Assembly: GCA_002270565.1 (NCBI GenBank)
Contig: NQMI01000016.1
Span: 124,001 to 188,000, forward strand
Reading direction: 5' to 3'
DNA: 64,000 bases
DNA from: Stenocarpella maydis
Lineage: Eukaryota > Ascomycota > Sordariomycetes > Diaporthales > Diaporthaceae
Positions within the stretch are counted from its first letter, which is position 1. Every line of letters begins with the position of its first letter. Positions 3,497 to 54,722 of the stretch are shown in pieces. Below the pieces are notes generated by a model. It had not been told where the DNA came from. It worked only from the letters and a program-made list of their open reading frames with translations, and searched no databases. Made by a program: the position numbers and the translations under genes.

Positions 3497-4892
3497 TTAT
3501 GGTGCGCCGCAGGTCGCCGCCAACTGTCGCTGTGCTCGGTGGACTCCATAGCTACAGAAATAGAATTGTTCCTTCAGCCTGAAAACAGGACCTGAATGAA
3601 GGATACGGCACCCGCAGGCCGATGTTTTAGCAGCTATCTGCAATGTGCCGAGGAACTTCGAATTAAGACTGGTGCTTTCCGTATTCTCTATAATAGGACC
3701 TTTTGTCGTTCCTTCGTCGATTGTTAGTCCGCCCGAACCGTGATGTGAACTCCATGATTGGCAACATACCGTGATTTTGCTTTGCCTTTCTCTACTGTGT
3801 GTCGATAGAAGCATATCAACCAATTCCTGCTTTCCCTCTTGCACCTGCCTGACATACTAAATGCCAACGATTAGCGACCGCGGTAAATCCCTCAAAAGCA
3901 CGAAGACCGGCAAACCTCCTCGATGGACTCATTAACGCAGAAGCGGACTGCCACGACAGGGAGCGTCTGTCCAAGCCGATACATCCGGGCCAGAGCTTGT
4001 TCTTCTATGGCCGGATTCCATTGTGGCTCCATCAAATACGCACGGCTCGCCGCCGTAAGATTGAGTCTGGCACAAATACATGTTAATCTTTGCAACCATG
4101 ATATGAATCTTGAAAGGTGCCCGTAATTACCCGACAGCGCCACAGGAGAGCGACATGAGAAGTACTGCCTCTGCTTCCAATTCCGAGAAGCGATGCATAA
4201 TGTCAACCCTTTGATTGGCAGGTACCTTTCCGTCAACCTGCAAGCAGGTGAATCCTGCGTCTTTAAGTGCCGTTGAAACGAGATCTAAAGTCGACTTCCA
4301 GAACGAGAAGACGATACTGGACACGATTAGCAAGTTCTGGCCATGATAAGTGGTGCGTACATGTCTGTACTAACCTCTTCTTTACTTGGGTCTGGCTTCT
4401 TAAATCACTCACGAGGGCTCGGATTTTGGTTGAAGATACCCTGCTAGGTCGCCAACCCCCCTACATTGTGCCTCTATAAGACCTAGACTGTTGGGACTCT
4501 AGCTCGTGCAACGGAGCTCCCTCAAGGGAACTTTGCAGTGCCCCAATCAAGTCTGTATAGCAGGACCGACATTCAGTAGATTCCTTGCGGATCATCAACA
4601 CTGCGGACCCCTTGCTTGCTGTGCGCTGCGGGAGACGGTCCTCCGGCCTAGGCGATGGCGAATTCAATATTAAATTCCCATAGATTGTGCAAGTCGAGGT
4701 CGATTCTGCCAGATCATCATCACGCAGAGGCTTATCCACAAAATCAAAGGAAGCACCGAGATCTTCCCCGTCAAATTGCGAGTCTGAGCTTGATTCTGAC
4801 GGATTAGCATCTGATAGAGCACATCTGGGATCCATAGAACATCCCAGATTGCAAACCATCCTCAGGGCGTTGATCTTTGATATGGCGTTCAT
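3497..4892 (-). pseudogene. C-terminal half of a RAD5/HLTF-like SNF2 helicase
   Basis: Read down from 4892, the sequence starts at the segment that in RAD5/HLTF-type SNF2 proteins lies between the two ATPase lobes (KINALRMVCNLG). A degenerate Cys-containing RING-like stretch follows (ECRSCYTDL), then the helicase C lobe: STKIRAL, VFSFWKSTLDLV, GFTCLQVDGKV, SRAYLMEPQWNP, ARMYRLGQT and VRFCVNESIEE. Introns are visible near 4388-4340 (GTAAAG donor), near 4120 and at about 3915-3850, after which the frame continues as VRQVQEGKQELVDMLLS. The ATP-binding lobe (Walker A, DEGH) is absent: just upstream, from 4943, lies opposite-strand NLR-type sequence. It is therefore 5'-truncated and most likely non-functional. 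The cut point is inferred from where homology-like sequence ends. Confidence 0.75.
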
Positions 4893-5089
4893 ATATCCGT
4901 GCCCTCTGGTCTCTGAGCTAATTATGTTGTCCAGGTACTGAATTGTGGCTCAAGTCTGATAAGAAGATAGAAGGCCTCGGTCTTAGATACTTTAGCCTTC
5001 AAAGATATGCCAGTGAAAATTGGATATCCCACATCTTGAAATATCTCTCGGAAAGTTCTCACGTACAGCTGCATTCTGATATCCCTCTG

Positions 5090-7033
5090 ATGAGACAGCT
5101 TCTGCGGTTCACCGCGGATCACCACGCCCTGTTGAAGACAGTGAGGCCACATATTGATGGAAACGACCAAACCATGGCCCCGACTCCGGTGCTGCAACAA
5201 CTAGAGGCTTTCCCCGGACCATGTGGTCTGATCAGCCGCGTGCTTTCTTTTCATGAGTCTTTCTCTGCTCAGCAACTTTCCGAAGGTCCAGGTATGCATC
5301 CTGGGACGCCCCTCTCCCTTTTCTTTGCCTTTGCCCCCTCCCCCCCCCCCCCCCTTTTTTTTTTTTTTTTTTTTCTCTCTTTTGTTTTCTGGCCCAGTCC
5401 CAGTAATATTGGTAGCTATGCGCTAAATGATCTGGTATTTTTCTTAGACATTCTAGCGGTCGACTCAGATCCCACTCTGCTCTCCCTCGCAAATTCTAAC
5501 TACCAAGCTGTCGTAAAGGATCTACTTCAAGCAACCACCTCCTCGGTTCTCACAGAAGCTGAACTGGTCGCCTTTAGAGCTCAGTTTGGAGGTACTGCAT
5601 TCGCCTGCCCCGTAAAAGGCTGCACCCGGGGGTTTTCTTCCGAAACTGAGCTGAATAACCACAAGACCCTGCGACACAAGCAGCGTCTGAGATGTCATCA
5701 TGACAAGTGTATCCACAACGATGTGGGCTTTGCGAATACAAGCAGTCTTCAACAGCACGTGAAGAGAGTGCACATGAAAGAGACGCCAAGAATTCCAACA
5801 GAACTCAAGAGGAGAAAGAAGATCCAAGAGCTTGGGTCACCTGTATATGAGAACCCTGACACAGCTGATACACTCCCTGCATCCCCTCGACCCCACCCCT
5901 TGGGCGACCTCGACATTGAACGCCTTGCTCCTCAGCACAAGAAGGCAGGGGGTAATGATTGGTATGTCGAGTTCAACCCAACAGTTCCTCTCATGCTCGA
6001 TGTAGATCTATTCCACACTCTGGCCCACGACTGTTATGTGTGCTGTGCCAAGTTCAGCATGGATGGTATGTATATTGCCACAGGCTGCGAATACTCTGCT
6101 CAGATCTACAACTTTTTCAGCGGAGACAGAGTATGCATTCTGCAACCCGACAACATCGACGACGGAATTTATATCAGTTCCGTGTGCTTCAGCCCTAATG
6201 GCAAGTTCCTTGTGACTGGAGGTGAGAACAAGGTGGTCCGGGTAGGTACTCGAGACGTCACTACACCTGCAGTTTGTTTGCTAACATCACCTAGGTTTGG
6301 GACATCGCTTCGCGTACAGTACGGAACGTCTTTCCTGGCCATGAAGATGAGATCTGGGATATAGACTTCTCTCAGGACGGCCGCACAATAGCATCTGGTA
6401 GCGCCGACGGCACTGTTCGTTTATGGGATATCGAGAACAGTAGCAGCATTTTGACGCTGCGCATTGAGGACTGCCACGGCGTTACCTCAGTCGCCATCTC
6501 CCCCGATACCCGGCTGGTGGCAGCCGGAAGTCTGGAAAGCAAAGTCTACATCTGGAACATGGAAGGCGATCTGATCCAAACCTGTGAGGGATTCTACGGA
6601 CATACGGATTCTATAAATAGTATTGCATGGTACCCGAGTGGAAAAAATATTCTCATCGCGAGCATTGATAGGACCATCAAGATGTGGGAGGTCGATTCAC
6701 CTCAGCTTGACGGAGATCTTGATCTGAAGACTTTCAATGGCCATGCGGTAAGCCGTTATCTTTGTGGGGTGTGTAATAACAACTGACGTGAATGATCTTT
6801 AGGATTCTGTTCTCTCAGTGGCCATGACACCCGATGCTCAGTGGGTTCTGTCCGGTTCTGAGGACAAAGGGGTGCAATTCTGGGACCCAAGAACCGGCAA
6901 TCCACAGCTGATCCTCCATGGGCATAATGATGCTGTTCTCTCAGTTTCACCGTGTCCAAAAGGTAATTTCTTTGTTACAAGCTCGATGGACAAGAGAGCA
7001 CGTCTTTGGAGGTACATACGAGTTGGCCCCTAA
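5090..7033 (+). CDS. NLR-tail / C2H2 / Tup1-like WD40 chimeric protein
   Basis: Exons by hand: (4943)5090-5291, 5448-6241, 6295-6747, 6803-7033, with phases that fit exactly. The first in-frame ATG is at 5090 (559 residues). The open frame reaches back to 4943 without an ATG, so an upstream exon may be missing. Order of parts: an alpha-helical segment like the C-terminal region of fungal NACHT/NLR proteins (RYASENWISHILKYL, LRFTADHHALL); a FRAQFGGTAFACP segment opening two C2H2 fingers (CPVKGC...HKTLRH and CHHDKC...HVKRVH); then seven WD40 blades. The blades closely match the Tup1/RcoA propeller (LDVDLFHTLAHD, GVQFWDPRTG). Tup1 is a nuclear corepressor. The N-terminal tetramerisation region of Tup1 is replaced here by the NLR-type and finger parts. 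The propeller appears complete and unbroken. Its function is unknown; a DNA-binding corepressor-like role is only an inference. Confidence 0.8.
5292..5447 (+). other. Intron with C15-T20 polypyrimidine tract
   Basis: GTATGC donor at 5292, 15 C (5340-5354) then 20 T (5355-5374), a GCTAAAT branch-like site near 5422 and a TTCTTAG acceptor ending at 5447. Its length (156) is a multiple of three, so the unspliced frame also stays open. That unspliced reading would insert a Pro/Phe homopolymer. Confidence 0.75.
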
Positions 7034-8528: not shown

Positions 8529-9914
8529 CTATAGAGACTCGTTCTGCAGCAACATTGTCAAGCCCGTTCTTAGAGCCTCCAATGCCCCTTTGCTCGGCTC
8601 GCCTTGACCAAAAGAGTGGCATAGCTCCATGTAAAGAAGATCCTCATCGCTGCAAGGAACCTTGACAAGCCCGGCTATCTCCTGGACGATTTTCCTCAGA
8701 ATCATACCCCTGTCCTTTCGGTTGCTAGCTGCGGTATGAAGGATCTCAGTTATGAGTGTAGCGCTTGTGTGATACGTCCGGCTGTCTCCTTGGATCTTTT
8801 GCTCGCCCAAGGCATCTCGTATAGCGTTTTGATAGACCTTACGATAATGGGCCAGCGTCTGTGGCAAATCCCCTTGCATTTCGGGATTGTGGAGAACTCC
8901 GTCAGACCCGTATCCGTACTCAGCTGGATCCCAGTCTCGAATCAACCAGCCCGGGGTATCTAAGATTGCCTAAAGACCTGGGCCAGGCGCCGACGCCGTC
9001 CCAATCGAGGATGCCAACAAGGTCTCCTGTGGCGAGACAAGGAAGTTTTGGAGGTCGAAATCCGGATGGGTGAGGACAAAGGAGTGAGCATCGGCCGCGA
9101 AAAAGTCGTCTAGGCAGACAAAAAAGAACCGCAGGAGTCGTTTTTGGCCAAGAAGAAATTCCGACAAGTCAAGGTTATGCCTATTGAGTGCACTGGTATA
9201 AAACTCCTTGGCTGTCTTGTAAGGCCCGCTTGGGAAGTAGACAGGCATGTAGTCGGGGTTGTCCTGCTCCAGGCGCTCAGCGAATGCGTCAATGTCCAGC
9301 TCACGGCGGCAACTAGCACTAGGCGGTCGACCATCGCTGAACATCAAGCGGCCGCCCTCTCTGAACGAGAACTGGCTGAGCTGAACCATAGCTGACGCCA
9401 CGTCCTTGAGAACGCGGGTTCGGCGGCGGCGGTAATCCTCTTCTGACATGCCCGGGCACTCGGCAAACCAGAAGTCGTACAAAGAGATGCCGGATATGAA
9501 CGAAAGACATATGTGCGGACAGCGGAGAGGGTTGTCTGGAGTTTTGCAGAATCCGAAGACGTCGGGGATGGGAATTGTGGTATGCTTCCGAATGAGCTGC
9601 ATTGTCCGGGCTTCCGATTCCAGCTCGTCGGCGCATAGCGTGTTCCAGTGCCCGGGCGTTCCGTTAATAGGGATTTTAAGAAGCCATGCTATTCCTCGAT
9701 CTCTAAACTTGATTGGGAATAGGATATTGTAGGCTCCATGGAGTGGCGCTTCGACAACGGGTGGGTGCGCTAGACGGTCTTTGGGATGTTTGCTGTCCCA
9801 GATCTCGGTGGCCGTTCCAGGAACCGAATCCAATCGAACGACAGCGAGAACTGGGAGAAAGGACGCCAGCTCATCCCCTTCGGCGTCAGCGGGCGATGGG
9901 TTATACTCAGGCAT
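8529..9914 (-). pseudogene. APH-family phosphotransferase with two compensating frameshifts
   Basis: A fungal member of the aminoglycoside-phosphotransferase/choline-kinase-like (APH, PF01636) group. The ATG at 9914 opens MPEYNPSPADAEG. Features in order: AWLLKIPINGTPGHW and ESEARTMQLIR (nucleotide-binding lobe), IPIPDVFGF, ICLSFISG, and the catalytic loop HPDFDLQNFL at about 9060. The metal-binding motif DWDGVGAWPR (DWD codons 9006-8998) is present but lies in another frame. One base is missing near 9020-9035 and one extra base sits in the GGGG run at 8953-8956. After that the original frame resumes with WLIRDWDPAEYGY and continues to the stop at 8529. The total span is 462 codons, so the two indels cancel. 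As read, the protein stops at about 8970 without DWD. Either it is a pseudogene or both are sequencing errors. Confidence 0.75.
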
Positions 9915-10320
9915 GTTGAAATACTGGTTGTGCGAGGTAGAAAGCGTTGAAGCTAGATGTTCTTGACGAGGAAAGGCTGTGAAGAATCGCGTCAACTGGT
10001 GGTGGAGATGTGTATTTGTCGAAGTGCTGTATCCATTCCAGTCGGGAGCTGTCTGATTATCTGTCCAGCCGTTTGGCGAAGTTTTGATAGCCCACGTACA
10101 ATCGAGGTTGGTCTCGGTGTGCCAAGACGAGAGGTGGACTTTGCCCTGCAGGATCAAGTACAGTTTATGGTCTGGACTATTGAGAGCGCTGACTTCAGCT
10201 TTGGTTTCCATAAGCTCCCCAACCGGGTTATGAAAACCACCCCTCTCCACCCCTGTTCGCAGTCCACCCGAGCTCGGAGTTGTTGGCGCATACGAGCACC
10301 CAGCTCTGGAGCTGGGAATC

Positions 10321-10926
10321 TCACTTCTGGTGGCCAGCTAGAGTACGCTTTGGGAGTGAGAAGCACGGATAAAGCTCTTCCAGATTGTCTTCAACGCGGA
10401 TCCCGTCATCATAGCACGTCGGGGTCATGTCGTCGGTAAAGTACGGACGCGGGCCCCTGTCGACCTCCTGTATCCACGCAATCTCGCGAGCAACCCTCGC
10501 ATCCAAGGGCAGTTTCCTATCCACCTGGTACCTGTTGTCGTCTCCTAGCTTAGTAGCCGCGTGGATGGGCTGCGCAGCGGTCTCGTCTATCTCTCTGCGG
10601 AACTCGGGTGTACAGGAATCGAGAAACACGTCGAAACAGACGACCATGCGGTTGCGGCGGAGCTGTACGGCGTACAGCTGTACCTGCGCGCCAGCAGCTT
10701 TGCAGGTGTCTGTGGGCGATGATTATTCTGAGGGTGTGGCCGTTGCGTGGCCAAGCTGGCCAAGGAGGGCAGTGGCAAACTCGTCGGCCAGATTCGTAGC
10801 CAGGGCAAACGCCGTCGACGAGTGCCGGGACGCGGGCACGGGCTGGTACTTGACATCGGCAAGACATCGTATCGTGCCGTCGGCCTTTAAAGCAGCCAAG
10901 GTTAGAGGCGAGACGTCTAGTTGCAT
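10321..10926 (-). pseudogene. Uncharacterised gene with an in-frame stop
   Basis: The ATG at 10926 opens MQLDVSPLTLAAL. The frame runs through ADVKYQPVPASRHSS and DEFATALLGQLGHA to a TAA at 10725-10723. It then continues in the same frame through GAQVQLYAVQLRRNRMVVCF, DVFLDSCTPEF, GDDNRYQVDRKLPLD and GPRPYFTDDMTP to a stop at 10321. Coding-like sequence on both sides with no frame change suggests a nonsense mutation such as CAA to TAA. An alternative is a shorter protein started downstream at the ATG near 10647. The family is not recognised. Confidence 0.45.
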
Positions 10927-11125: not shown

Positions 11126-12686
11126 ATGCCTCATAGCAACTATAGGTCTATGCATTCGCTCGTCCTGGGCCTGGCTCTGCGTTGCCCGATTCCCTGCCTT
11201 AGCTTGGCTTCCCAGTGGTTGTCGGACTGCGAAAAGCATCATGGAGACAAATGCGAGCAGAACCAGGACTCGGTACTTCCGAAGCGAGTAATTGAAATCG
11301 GGCATGTCCTTCAAGATGGTTCGCTGAGCACACGGCTGGTGACTACCGATGGCAGCCGTGGCAGATATCTGACGTTCAGCTACTTTTGGGGAAGCGCCCC
11401 TTTTTTACCTTGACTGTCGACAACATTGACGATCTGCACAGATCTCTACCCAGCAATATGGTCCCAAAGACGATACAGGACGCTAAAGTACTGACGCAGC
11501 ACCTCGGTTTTCGCTACCTCTGGGTCGATAGTCTCTGTATTATCCAAGGGGATGACACTGTTGCGGCTGCCGATTGGAAAGAACAGTCACGCGAAATGGG
11601 GAGAATATATCGCTCAGCTTTAATGACGATCGCGGCAGCGGCTGCCACGGACTGCCACGCTGGCCTATTCCAGGCGCGACCGCCCCCGGAGGTTCCTTAC
11701 TGCCCTGTTCTTCAGCGACAAGGGAGCCAAGACATGGTCTATCTGGGCCAGGGCCTGCAGAATATTCAAAACCAGACGGAACCGCTCAGTCTGCGCGGCT
11801 GGGCACTCCAGGAAGCAGTCCTCTCCAGGCGCCTGCTCACCTTTGGGACCGCCGAGTTATCCTGGAAGTGCCGCTGTTGTAACTGCCGAGAGACCGTACT
11901 CCTGGAGCTGCCCAACGAGGCTCCATCCACCAGCGTGCTCAGCACGGCGCCAGAGATCTCGGCATCGTGGGTGAAGCTCGTCGAGGAGTTCAGCCACCGG
12001 GAACTGGCCTTCCTGACTGATAAGCTGCCTGCCATCGGCGGGTTGGCGGTGGTTGTCTCTGATGCCCTGGGACACGAGTCGGAATTTGGAAAAATGAGGC
12101 GCACCATATGCTTCTTTGGAGACATCTGGGAAGCGTACGAGACGGGAGTCGGGCCTTCTCCAGGCAGAAGATGCCCCGTGCACCTACTTGGTCCTGGGCA
12201 TCTGTTGATGGCGGAGTGGAGTTTTTAAAAGGTGGCGTGCAGCCAGTGCGGCTGGAAATCAAGGATAAGTCACCTATTATTACCGGGCGTGTCATAAAGA
12301 TTGCCTCCATTAGGTATCAAGCGGAGGGGAGCTATTATGGCAGATTCGAACAACACCGGCCGTGGACGGGGTTTCAAAGGACAATGAAGACCTTCGTGGA
12401 TGATTTGGATGACATACCGGAAGCACATAGAAATGGCCCCAGAGGAAATTGTCTGGTAAATGTGTGGTTTTTCTTCTTGGGAAAAGCCGAAGGACTGATC
12501 CTGGTTCCTGCTGAACCAAGAGCAAACCAGACGAGACACTTCGCGCGGGGTAATATGAAACGACTACATGAGCTGGTTTCCGGCGAATCTCATTCAGTGG
12601 GTAGATACCGGCGAGTCGGTGCTTTCGTGGGATACGTGGAACCACAAACGAAACATAACCAAGCCGTTACAGTGGAGATAGTATAG
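11126..12686 (+). pseudogene. HET-domain protein gene with two frameshifts
   Basis: HET (heterokaryon incompatibility, PF06985) proteins mediate non-self recognition and cell death in filamentous fungi. The hallmark segments appear in order across three frames: WLSDCEKHHGDKC, RYLTFSYFWG (frame 1, to 11410), TIQDAKVLTQHLGFRYLWVD and SLCIIQGD, MGRIYRSALMTIAAA, SLRGWALQEAVLSRRLL (frame 2, to 12228), and RAPTWSWASVDGGV with the C-terminal part (frame 3, to 12686). The first shift lies in the TTTTGGGG run at 11384-11391, the second at about 12135-12165. Each is explained by one missing base. The gene is otherwise near full length, so the decay is recent or the breaks are homopolymer sequencing errors. 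The start at 11126 is uncertain. Confidence 0.8.
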
Positions 12687-16610: not shown

Positions 16611-16937
16611 GTTATGCAGAAGTGACCTTTCAAGAAATGATGATGTCGAAAGTCACTCCTTACAAGCGCATTGAATGTTGTCTCGTCGTGGTGGAGCTGT
16701 GCCACTTCCAAGTCCACAGGCCTCCTTGGAAGTGGAAGGGTTAGGGTCTGGCAGCGACATACCTCACCCATGCATACTTGCATCGTGCTTGAGCCGACTC
16801 CATCCCAACCTGTCTTCTCGCTGGCTGACAGACGACCACGACATCACTGCCCTCCCCAGTGCCGGCCTTGCCCAGAAACAGCAAAGAAGGATTCAGTCTT
16901 CCAAATTTGCAGGGGAAAAGGCCCGTCAGTCTACCAA

Positions 16938-50500: not shown

Positions 50501-52376
50501 TTACCGGAACACCGGGTGGATCTTGCCGCTCTGCCGATCTCTCAGCCTCTCTGGAAGTTTCACCCGATACCTGAAAGCTTTGTTAACTTCAAATCGTACG
50601 TAATGTAGCCCAGAGCGTGCAATGGCGGATGGATGAGCTGCAAAAGAAAAACAGTGGGATCAATGCAACTTACATATGGGTCGTCCAAGCGCAGAGCAAA
50701 CGCCTCGTGTCCGCTGGATCAATGATCTCTGGGACATTAAACGCAGCAGCAGTGCGCACAGGATTCTGGAGCCTAGTATACTCCTCCATTAGGCTATCGT
50801 AGATCTGGGCTCTTTTCTCTCCGGCTTCCCTCAACTCCCTGGAGTGGCTAGCTTCTATGCCGCCTTCCAATGGGAGACTGCCCGATTCAAGGCTCGGCCA
50901 CGCGACACGATTGTGAGGATCCCGGCAGTCAGCCATCAGCCCGCCGGCAACACCGTAGCACTTCCTGATAAGGACATTGAAGACCGGCATTGTCGTGGAG
51001 TAGTAGGCCTTGCCCAGCTCAACCCCGTATTTCATCGTTGCTTGCCGTTCCGCCGCGGTGCCGACAGCATATCCAGGGCAGTCGACGAACTGGATCAGGG
51101 GGAGGTTGAAGACGTCGCACAGGTTCAGGTGTCTCGTAATCTTTTGTGCTCCCAGCGCGTCGGTGGCACCACTCAGCACTTCGGGGTTGTTCGCCACGAC
51201 CCCCACAGGCTGGCCATGCAGCCGGCCGAGCCCCACAAATGCCGTGTTGCCCCAGCCAGCCCCTATTTCGAGCCAGGAGTCTCGGTCCAGCGTCGTCTGT
51301 ATCAGCCGCAGCATGGAGTAGGCCCGTTGGCGGCGGCGAGGTATCATGGCGCGCAGCGACCTCACGTCCCTGTCAGGAGGATCTGCGGCTTCCGCGACGG
51401 GAGGTAGATGGTTTAGTCCACAATCCGGGACGTAGGAGATGAACCTTCGGATCTGGTCGAAGCAGGCAGCCTCGCCAGGGGCGGCATTGTCGATTGTCCC
51501 GTTCGCGCAGTGGATCTCCGGCCCGCCGAGCTCACCGACGGTCAGTCCCTCCTCAAAGGTTGCCTTTGCCACGACATGTGGCCCGGCGTTGAACAAGGAG
51601 CCGACGTCGCTCGCCATGACCGAGAAGTGGCACGCCGTCACCCGCGCTGCACCAAGACCAATTGCCGGGCCCAGCACGGCACCGACGTTCGGGATCCCAA
51701 GGCTGAGCTGCTCGGCAACCTCCCTGAAGCCGGGGGTGGGGGGCACATAGCTGTACCCATCCGCCATGATGGTCGTCACGGAGCCCCCGCCAGAGCTGCC
51801 GTCGACCAGCTTGACGATTGGCAGCCGCAGGTCCAGGCACAGCTTCTCCATGTACACCGTCTTGGCCCAGATGGCCCCGTCGGCGTGGCCAGCCCGCAGC
51901 GAGAAGTCGTCTGCGGTGAACAGGACACGGCGTCCCCCCACCGTGCCGAAGCCCTGGACGTTGTTGCTCGGCGTGAAGCCTCGGACTTCGTCTCGCGCCT
52001 TTCCGTCCTTGCCCGCAGGCGTCGTCCTCCAGTCTATGGTTCCTGCTACGGAGCCGACCTCATAGAAGCTGCCCGGGTCAAGGAAGGCATCGATACGCTC
52101 CCTGACCCACAGCTTGCCTGCCTGCTTCTGGCGCACATAGCCTCGGCGGTCTATCGGTGGGGTTTTTGCGATTTTCTTCACGGCTTCGACTTGTCCTAGT
52201 ACGTCGGACCAGTCGGCTGGAGGCACATTCTTGTCCTTCTTCCTGGTTCGCTTCGTCGGCTGCTTCTCTTGAGTATCCGTTGGCGTGCTGGCATTGGCGT
52301 GGTTGGGGCTTTGTATTTGAGCTGCGATCTGCTTCAGTCGCATCCTCGCTTGGGTGTCGTCATTGTCCCCGCCCAT
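50501..52376 (-). CDS. Acyl-CoA carboxylase, carboxyltransferase (beta) subunit
   Basis: Exons 52376-50674 and 50570-50501 (103-nt intron, GTAAGT donor, TTAAC branch site, TTTCAG acceptor) give 590 residues ending LPERLRDRQSGKIHPVFR. Splicing restores the C-terminus past an apparent TAA directly after THM. Carboxyltransferase (PF01039) segments: RERIDAFLDPGSFYEVGSVA, LRAGHADGAIWAKTVYMEK, LPIVKLVDGSSGGGSV, SLGIPNVGAVLGPAIGLGAA (oxyanion Gly-rich), and in the C-terminal half GQPVGVVANNPEVLSGATD, LPLIQFVDCPGYAVG and KAYYSTTMPVFNVLI. The N-terminal ~60 residues are basic (KRTRKKDKN). It transfers carboxyl from carboxybiotin to an acyl-CoA. The VDGSSGGGSV stretch is unlike the MCC beta pattern (VDSGGANL), recalling a separate bacterial-type acyl-CoA carboxylase clade. 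Head-to-head with the alpha gene. Confidence 0.88.
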
Positions 52377-52685
52377 CGTGGTTCACGTTATTGGTTGAAG
52401 CTGCAAGCATTGGACCCGAGTGAGCTCGGTAGGGAAATTGCCACGAGGATGCATGGTTCCATGAGGAGATGGCGCCCATTCACCTGGAGTCCAGCCCCTG
52501 TACGGAGTAGATGCGCAGCCGAGGTTCACTTGGGGCGGGGGTTGGTCCACCATTAGCATTCCCCCTCGGACCTGCGACTACATACAGGCAGCGGTTTCCA
52601 GAGATATCACCAAAGCAGATACTGCTGGTCTCGCGCTTCCGGAATTGCCAAGGCTTGCATACCTGGGTACGTACAGCTTGAGGCT
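52377..52685. promoter_or_regulatory. Divergent promoter shared by the carboxylase subunits
   Basis: 309 bp separate the two ATGs on opposite strands, so it is very likely a bidirectional promoter giving matched expression. It contains a TACCTGGGTACGTAC near-palindrome at 52659-52675. I did not identify a known binding site. Confidence 0.6.
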
Positions 52686-54722
52686 ATGGCTCCTGCACGG
52701 ATCTTGGTGGCGAATAGGTGAGTACGACAATTGCATGTGGGAAAGACGCCCGATGGGAATATACGAACTGATTGTACACCGGGATAAAGAGGCGAGATCG
52801 CTGTGAGAATTCTCTCATCAGCCCGTGAGCTTGGCCTTCATACCATTGCCGTTTGGACCGAGAACGATGACGCCCACGTCGCATACTCCCACGAGGCAGT
52901 GCAGCTTCCCTCAGTGTCCTCATACACGGATCCGTCGCACCTGGTGTCCCTGTGTAAGGAGTACCACGTGGACCTTGTGCACCCCGGATACGGCTTTCTG
53001 TCCGAGTCACCAGTCTTTTGTCGACTGCTCGAGGATGCCGGCATCACTTTCGTGGGCCCCGGCGCCCATCTCCTCGTACGGACCGGCGACAAGCTGAGTG
53101 CGAGGAAGCTGGCTGACGAGTGCCGTGTGCCCGTACTCCCGGCTCTGGCCGAGCCAGTTGAGAAGTTCGAGACATTGAGGGCATTCGCAGATGATGTCGG
53201 CCTGCCAATTATGATCAAGGCGGTCGATGGCGGCGGCGGCAGAGGCATCCGCCTTGTGCGACGGCTGGAGGATCTTGAATCAAGCTTCCGCAGGGCCGTG
53301 AATGAAAGCCCAAGTAGGAAAGTGTTTGCCGAGAAGGCCGCCGTCGACGGCTTTCGCCATATCGAAGTACAGATCATCGGCAACGGGAGGGGTGATGCCC
53401 ATCACTTTTGGGAGCGCGAGTGCTCGATACAGCGTCGATTTCAGAAAGTCGTTGAGATCGCGCCATCAACCGTACCGAACCGTACGCTCATCGCCTCCGT
53501 CATAGAGGCTGCTGTGCGCATGGCAAAAGCCATTAAGTATCAGTCACTTGGTACATGGGAATTCCTCGTCTCTACCAAGAACTCGCAGTTCTATTTCATG
53601 GAAATCAATCCTCGACTTCAAGTTGAGCATACTGTAACAGAAGCAATATGTGGCGTTGATCTGGTCCGGTTACAGCTTCTCATTGCGCTTGGCAGAAGCT
53701 TTCCTGATATTGGCCTCAACACGCCACTGAAAGCCGCTGCTACCAGCACGTCGCCCAGTTCCACATCAGTACAACTCAGGATCACGGCAGAGGACGTCAA
53801 GCAAGGTCTCTCGCTTTCAATCGGTAGAATTCGCCGTGTTCTTTTCCCAGGCGGCAATGGGACCCGAATAGACACTCACCTACGACCCGGCGTGATCGTC
53901 TCGGCAGACTTCGATTCTCTTCTGGCCAAGCTAATTGTCACAAGCACCGACTGGGATGCTGCGGTCGCAAAAGCCGAGAGAGCGTTGCAAGATGTCTCGA
54001 TCGACGGTGTGACGACTAATCTCGGCTTGCTCCTGGGTATTGTACGATCCGCAGACTTTCAGAATGGTCGTTGTGATATACGATGGCTAGAAAAGCAACT
54101 GGAAGTGGTCAACGGCCCAAAACTAGACCTCTCAACCACGATTGGCAAACTGAATGGTGGCGGTGGCGATCGCATGAACCATTCCTCAGCACAGCCATCT
54201 AAATCATCTGGGCAGCTTGTGAGAAAAGGTGACCAATATCGAATCAAAGTGGAAAGTAGCGAAGATGTGGATATTTTTGAAGACCTTGTTTCAATTACAA
54301 GTGTCATTCGAAATGACTTTCCAGAATCACTCGCGGTCAAACTATCAACCTTCAATATTGATAACCCGGACGCCTCCCTTAACCATCAGAGACAAAAGAG
54401 CTACACCGTTCGCATCCTGAAGCAGTCAGAGACTCAGAAGTGTCTCGAACCGTCTACGGGTCGCTCTCGAGCTACACGTGAAGACCCTTCGAAGCTCATT
54501 TGCCCCATAGCCGGTCAAGTCATCGAGTTCCTCGTAGACGAGGGAGACGCAGTTGCCGAGGGGGATGCAGTTCTGGTCATCCGCCAACAGAAGATGGAGC
54601 TAGAAATAAGATCCCATCGGTCTGGGGTCGTCAGGTCACTGGTTGGCCTCGATGACGGGGATAGTATCGCCGTGGGCACTGCCATCTGCAGTATCGATGC
54701 GGCAGACCGGGAGAAATTATGA
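52686..54722 (+). CDS. Acyl-CoA carboxylase, biotin carboxylase/carrier (alpha) subunit
   Basis: A 32-nt first exon (52686-52717, MAPARILVANR) is followed by a 72-nt intron with GTGAGT donor. Exon 2 (52790-54722) begins GEIAVRILSSAREL; 654 residues in all. The split falls inside the family start motif ILVANRGEIAVRIL, which confirms it. Biotin carboxylase: HPGYGFLSESPVF, KAVDGGGGRGIRLV (ATP-binding Gly loop), FAEKAAVDGFRHIEVQII, ERECSIQRRFQKVVEIAP, MEINPRLQVEHTVTE and RPGVIVSADFDSLLAKLIV. A biotinyl domain lies near the end (LICPIAGQVIEFLVDEGDAV). The biotin Lys sits in RQQKMELEI rather than the usual EAMKM. It carboxylates biotin with ATP and bicarbonate; the partner is the beta subunit encoded divergently. 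Confidence 0.92.

Follow-up and report, generated by a model that had tools for sequence, protein, structure and literature searches.

A fungal fusion gene of two zinc fingers and the interaction half of Tup1

The gene at positions 5090-7033 of the window is a genuine fused gene in which a two-zinc-finger module is joined to the interaction half of Tup1. Here, the window is the whole stretch of DNA that was analysed (64,000 nucleotides; G000:C67:124001-188000 of a 53.5 Mb assembly, on which the genome-wide searches were run). Four exons on the plus strand (5090-5291, 5448-6241, 6295-6747, and 6803-7033) are separated by introns of 156, 53, and 55 bp, all of which are GT-AG introns with phases 1, 0, and 0, respectively, and together encode 559 aa with zero stops. 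This exon/intron reconstruction bears out an earlier note on this DNA, which had described one spliced, stop-free frame with its phases in order. The coding span of 5090-7033 proposed there also stands, but the ATG at 5090 is only a candidate start because the homologous frame extends upstream to about 4958-4961. The locus has the following features.

3895-4369, minus strand: C-terminal pieces of a helicase in broken frames (PF00271, 57 bits, two frames joined for the scan)
4961-5291, plus strand: constant helical tail, in a frame that is open from 4922 and has a candidate ATG at 5090; the family's reading frame lacks its 5' end here
5292-5447, plus strand: intron 1 (156 bp, GT-AG, phase 1); relatives resume at the same place (DILAVDSD)
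5448-6241, plus strand: exon 2, which carries the fusion junction and spans the last part of the constant module, both fingers, the linker, and Tup1 from its entry to the first blades
5606-5677, plus strand: C2H2 finger 1 (CPVKGC...H...H), by ligand pattern; below the Pfam cut-off
5693-5773, plus strand: C2H2 finger 2 (CHHDKC...H...H), by ligand pattern
5804-5827, plus strand: basic stretch LKRRKKIQ, a possible nuclear import signal; relatives are basic at the same place
5900-6013, plus strand: Tup1-derived linker and arm (LGDLDIERLAPQHKKA..DWYVEFNPTVP), matching native Tup1 from residue 261
6014-7030, plus strand: Tup1-type WD40 propeller with seven blades, interrupted by introns 2 and 3 (Pfam WD40 and alignment with native Tup1)
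6242-6294, plus strand: intron 2 (53 bp), apparently common to the fusion relatives and not present in the genome's native Tup1 gene
6295-6747, plus strand: exon 3 of the gene model
6748-6802, plus strand: intron 3 (55 bp), at the position of the last intron of native Tup1 (ancestral)
6803-7033, plus strand: exon 4 of the gene model, with the stop codon at 7031-7033

The fingers, the linker, the Tup1 arm, and the first blades all lie within the uninterrupted exon 5448-6241, and the fusion is therefore real and not an illusion of splicing. The earlier note had itself raised two separate genes, or an ordinary Tup1 gene with the fingers in an intron, as ways in which the chimera could dissolve; both fail because one exon holds the fingers together with the first blades and because the join is kept in 10 other database proteins, whose Tup1 parts have 55-73% identity to the native protein. 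Given a junction within a single exon and its recurrence in these proteins, we attach a negligible probability to an artefact, i.e., two adjacent genes or a prediction mis-join. The two C2H2 fingers are likewise upheld by their Cys-Cys-His-His ligand pattern, which is present in all 18 family members (window copy included) for finger 1 and in 17 of the 18 for finger 2, though finger 1 scores below the Pfam cut-off for zf-C2H2 (21.2 versus 25.2 bits) and Pfam lists no zf-C2H2 stretch for finger 2.

The C-terminal half forms the complete Tup1-like propeller that the earlier note had described: Pfam yielded seven WD40 stretches (208 bits; P0001, 237 bits), and yeast Tup1 (PDB 1erj) aligned with chimera residues 213-559 in one stretch (E 1.1e-81). 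The chimera's best database match is Diaporthe ilicicola Tup1 (diail_4509). Within the assembly itself, native Tup1 is encoded at G000:C209:270249-272294 (minus strand, four exons); the chimera shares 63% aa identity with it over 351 columns and enters it at native residue 261 (BLASTP). The N-terminal tetramerisation helix of Tup1 is missing, as the earlier note had supposed: Tup_N (PF08581) is absent from the module scan of the chimera, in which all nine families up to an E value of 1 were listed, and present in P0001 (59.8 bits). The middle repression/proline-rich region is missing as well, because the fusion entry at native residue 261 lies after it. Compared to Tup1/RcoA/Rco-1, the chimera is alike in linker, arm, seven-bladed propeller, and last intron position; it differs in the two fingers and helical tail that precede the Tup1 part and in one extra intron, while Tup1/RcoA/Rco-1 has the Tup_N helix and the middle repression region.

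In a two-sequence alignment, 221 of 338 propeller residues are identical to native Tup1, with dN of 0.27-0.28 and a saturated dS of 1.7 (LWL85) to 2.8 (NG86). The 124 of 336 propeller columns that differ from native Tup1 are those that tend to vary (mean entropy 0.65 versus 0.44 overall); a mean as high as this did not occur in 20000 permutations. Simulated neutral decay to 65% identity introduced 5.3 stops on average, and only 2 of 200 runs stayed stop-free. These comparisons point to long purifying selection on the window propeller in the past. At the same time, 52 of the 175 columns that are invariant among 120 listed Tup1-type matches are altered in the chimera, mostly in blades 7 (10/24), 5 (9/23), and 2 (9/25). 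With 30% of the Tup1-invariant columns altered and a WD40 score of 208 versus 237 bits, the propeller is not that of an ordinary Tup1; its fold is probably kept, though part of the usually frozen sequence has changed.

A first search for relatives, using chimera residues 1-236 as the query, gave eight proteins; a second, using P0128 residues 1-365, scored the best 7997 candidates by shared words, covered protein lengths of 283-978 aa, and gave at least 17 proteins, with P0128 and the other seven among them. These relatives (P0121-P0137) come from the sources 'lgn' (16) and 'jgi' (1), and many are mechanical ORFs running into introns. Among the matches listed, named NCBI records in the searched length ranges contained no family member, and the scanned collections of viral contigs and genome contigs contained no relative of the module. 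Within the genome, chimera residues 1-236 have no second copy, and P0128 found a single weak match at C23, which covers the finger region and contains a stop (E 1.6e-5). C23 carries a distant C2H2 ORF (G000:C23:8607-9410, minus strand; L066:1608-2411) with a tail-like ORF upstream (FVLLSYVCNNWLHH). We rejected this C2H2 ORF as an NLR tail, as inspection by eye of the ORFs in the surrounding 8 kb revealed no NACHT. An AlphaFold2 model of P0128 (16-row alignment) had a mean pLDDT of 49.5 and a pTM of 0.26; in ten-residue blocks, pLDDT was 69-83 in the fingers and did not exceed 51 in the first 200 residues.

The relatives differ in what follows the fingers. BLASTP traces each of the 17 ends to one of four genes in this genome (weakest E 3e-8). 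Ten carry the Tup1 arm and first blades (BLASTP against own-genome genes), and only these parts of Tup1 are visible because the ORFs end in an intron. P0134 contains the Tup1 linker alone (up to DDW), followed by an unrelated helical end without a match in the own genome, and the Tup1 propeller has apparently been lost or replaced in this protein. A TAF12 piece is present in P0129, P0130, P0131, and P0133 (58.8-77.9% identity), and P0131 itself matches TFIID subunit 12 in PDB (E 6e-11). The TAF12 matches extend no farther than residue 281 and do not reach the histone fold, which the own TAF12 gene encodes in the next, downstream frame (PF03847, 45 bits). P0127 carries a MED15 piece (38% identity over 104 aa); the own MED15 gene was identified by PDB 7jmn (E 1.5e-10), with a glutamine-rich alignment. 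The MED15 piece is followed by a match below the cut-off to Aft1_OSA, a domain of a stress bZIP factor (E 0.0025), and P0127 would perhaps hold two captured pieces in a row. P0128 shares a 34-aa stretch (50% identity) with a gene on C59 that we take to be LisH/SomA/Flo8-like and in which Pfam yields a TFIIA match alone, below the cut-off. With Tup1, TAF12, MED15, and LisH-like ends on one module, the family comprises a constant tail and C2H2-C2H2 unit with exchangeable transcription-regulator ends. The native Tup1, TAF12, MED15, and LisH-like genes are all still present in the own genome, as looked for in integrated decoys.

In each of the 10 fusion ORFs, the Tup1 part begins at native residues 243-262 and ends at 375-376, beyond which the ORF reads on. 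The read-on resembles window intron 2 (xTRAVTTPAASLLTS) clearly in P0122, P0123, P0124, P0126, P0132, and P0136 and more weakly in P0121, P0125, P0135, and P0137 (by eye). Because the native Tup1 gene of the genome is continuous (intronless) at the 375-376 site, this common exit makes one old fusion event likely, and a single event is also the simplest reading of the Tup1 branch. Intron 2, on the simplest reading, would have arisen together with the join or later. Native Tup1 also has intron 3, which argues that a DNA-level copy of a Diaporthe-type Tup1 gene was joined with its last intron kept. In the module tree, the Tup1-tailed rows (P0134 included) are split from the TAF12, MED15, and LisH-like rows at 99/98. 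Propeller trees (about 100 columns) did not recover the 11 fusion propellers as a single clade; a single fusion clade is not rejected (p 0.49) in the tree with four natives (three plus the own). A larger tree contained 58 native rows, the own included, drawn from 120 listed matches, of which 62 were skipped by pattern and 1 as a duplicate or for its length. Here, all fusion propellers but P0121 (10 of 11) cluster with the two Diaporthe-type natives (83/98, not starred), and the own native Tup1 falls with that of D. ilicicola. From this grouping and the best database match, we call the host Diaporthe-like.

The earlier note had called the tail NLR-type, and this claim is not established. The tail motif H-x2-IAFAC ... 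YASxNW-x2-H resembles the region after the nucleotide-binding domain in own NLRs such as C46 (L051), C134 (L075), and C298 (L076). A profile of 10 own NLR tails, which were chosen by a motif taken from P0121 and P0128, gave E values of 4e-4 for P0128, 0.055 for P0121, and 0.26 for the window tail, compared to 0.076 for the best of 1000 shuffles. With a fairer profile of 11 NLR tails chosen without the motif, nothing reached significance and the signal was gone: P0121, the window tail, P0128, and P0127 ranked 12, 17, 18, and 176 of 1138, behind shuffled sequences. Conversely, the tail profile run against six frames of 72 loci found only the window's own copies significant, and run against 23 NACHT loci and three C23 loci, it found nothing significant (best 0.09, at C23). 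Genome searches with NACHT and NPHP3_N gave no match at the window coordinates, and no nucleotide-binding domain was visible ahead of the tail in any family member, as judged from the database proteins. We consider the likeness suggestive of an NLR origin of the tail.

Residues 54-449 of P0121 align with window 4958-6286 (48.5% identity, E 2e-130). For the residues that precede this alignment in P0121, and for the upstream residues of P0128, no significant match was obtained in the window or in the 20 kb upstream of it (best E 0.035); those of P0128 also have none anywhere in the genome. Judged by these alignments, the window copy is 5'-truncated relative to its relatives, with homology ending near 4958. 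Near 4950, the 5' side of the helicase apparently abuts the truncated 5' side of the chimera, head to head. The extension of the helicase over 4370-4949 is a tentative reading, to which Pfam, PDB, and the search for a second genomic copy lent no support. The window copy may work as a short form from the ATG at 5090, or it may be dying. That it is a relic beside a broken helicase, recently cut at its 5' side and unexpressed whatever the rest of the family does, would account for the missing upstream parts and for the head-to-head arrangement with the broken-frame helicase pieces; we nevertheless regard this as unlikely, though with an appreciable chance, as 559 codons without stop, frameshift, or splice damage and the strong past purifying selection on the propeller speak against it.

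Downstream on the minus strand is an APH-like phosphotransferase frame (8973-10337; PF01636, 20.6 bits, just below the cut-off of 23.2). A HET domain frame (11296-12225, plus strand; PF06985, 80 bits) lies about 4 kb downstream of the chimera, and an RFT1 gene is located at 16644. The stretch between the chimera and RFT1 looks like a fast-changing recognition region. Farther away, frames for a carboxyl transferase and a biotin carboxylase lie side by side (50673-52382, minus strand, and 52788-54719, plus strand) and are presumably of the methylcrotonyl-CoA carboxylase type.

In the HET-E/HNWD NACHT-WD40 incompatibility proteins, the WD40 repeats are near-identical and fast-changing, whereas the chimera has a Tup1 propeller with divergent blades. 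These proteins resemble the chimera in having a fungal C-terminal WD40 propeller, as described in the available part of PMC1805685. In the accessible portion of PMC12258605, C2H2 fingers, mostly C-terminal, are reported in 34 Sordariales NLRs, and a CHK2-derived kinase is described as a putative integrated decoy; a Podospora NLR with a C-terminal zinc finger is reported in an excerpt of PMC5658179. The chimera and the Sordariales NLRs both have C2H2 fingers toward the C-terminus and end in a copy of a host protein, with signs of a single event in each case (PMC12258605, same portion). The chimera differs from them in that the window copy has no NACHT/NPHP3_N match and in that transcription regulators take the place of the CHK2-like kinase. 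The plant protein RRS1, with its integrated WRKY decoy, offers an analogy of mechanism, with a transcription-factor domain on a receptor as bait (PMC5539180, in the part available); RRS1 is a plant NLR, and we claim no homology. Tup1 is unmentioned in the available main text of PMC12258605, and among the titles and abstracts retrieved on fungal NLRs, decoys, and Tup1, none names a finger-module fusion of this kind. Integrated decoys in fungal NLRs have already been proposed (PMC12258605, same portion).

The best explanation, to which we give somewhat less than an even chance, is that an old module family was joined to Tup1 once, that the captured piece is an integrated bait or decoy, and that the window copy is 5'-truncated. 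By analogy, we favour an integrated-bait role for the captured pieces in general. A captured piece would offer the docking surface of Tup1, TAF12, or MED15 (putative docking parts) to DNA-binding regulators or to a foreign protein hijacking them; the tail, which may be the end of an NLR-type receptor, would sense the docking, and the fingers would help to place the protein in the nucleus. In yeast, activators bind the MED15 and TAF12 subunits, according to the available part of PMC8137143. That the family is one of fungal immune receptors, with a constant tail and C2H2 fingers and a C-terminal hotspot that swaps Tup1, TAF12, MED15, and LisH-like baits, is possible but doubtful.

The main rival to the bait reading is that of a competitor or dominant-negative protein, in which a free propeller, TAF12 piece, or MED15 piece would bind the repressors or activators that the native protein binds and the fingers would tether it to chosen genes, where it would block or redirect normal regulation, with no receptor involved. 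The loss of the N-terminal and middle regions of Tup1, the end of the TAF12 matches at residue 281, before the histone fold, the conservation of the fingers across the family, and the lack of any visible receptor domain are all in agreement with such a role. We consider it rather unlikely, as the altered Tup1-invariant columns would weaken native-like binding and the long conserved tail and the swap of different regulators are left unexplained. The available text of PMC2882346 describes the Tup1 N-terminus as oligomerising and binding Ssn6, the middle region as needed for repression, and the WD40 part as serving protein-protein interaction; it also states that the Ssn6/Tup1 complex has no DNA binding of its own and credits the Tup C-terminus with a role toward downstream repression factors. 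The last two statements, together with the domain order of fingers followed by propeller, suit the proposal in the earlier note of a self-sufficient corepressor, whose own fingers would bring the Tup1 propeller to DNA and bypass a DNA-binding partner. This proposal found no support and is improbable: the missing tetramerisation and middle repression regions argue against a self-tethered corepressor, only the WD40 part is kept, with 52 of 175 invariant columns altered, and sister modules bear TAF12 or MED15 pieces instead.

If the immune-receptor reading is true, the family would be a fungal counterpart of plant receptors whose integrated domains are exchangeable. The captures of Tup1, TAF12, and MED15 would then hint at targets of foreign proteins in fungal nuclei and provide baits for screens. 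Receptor or not, exchangeable regulator ends on one finger module would be an unusual route to new regulators.
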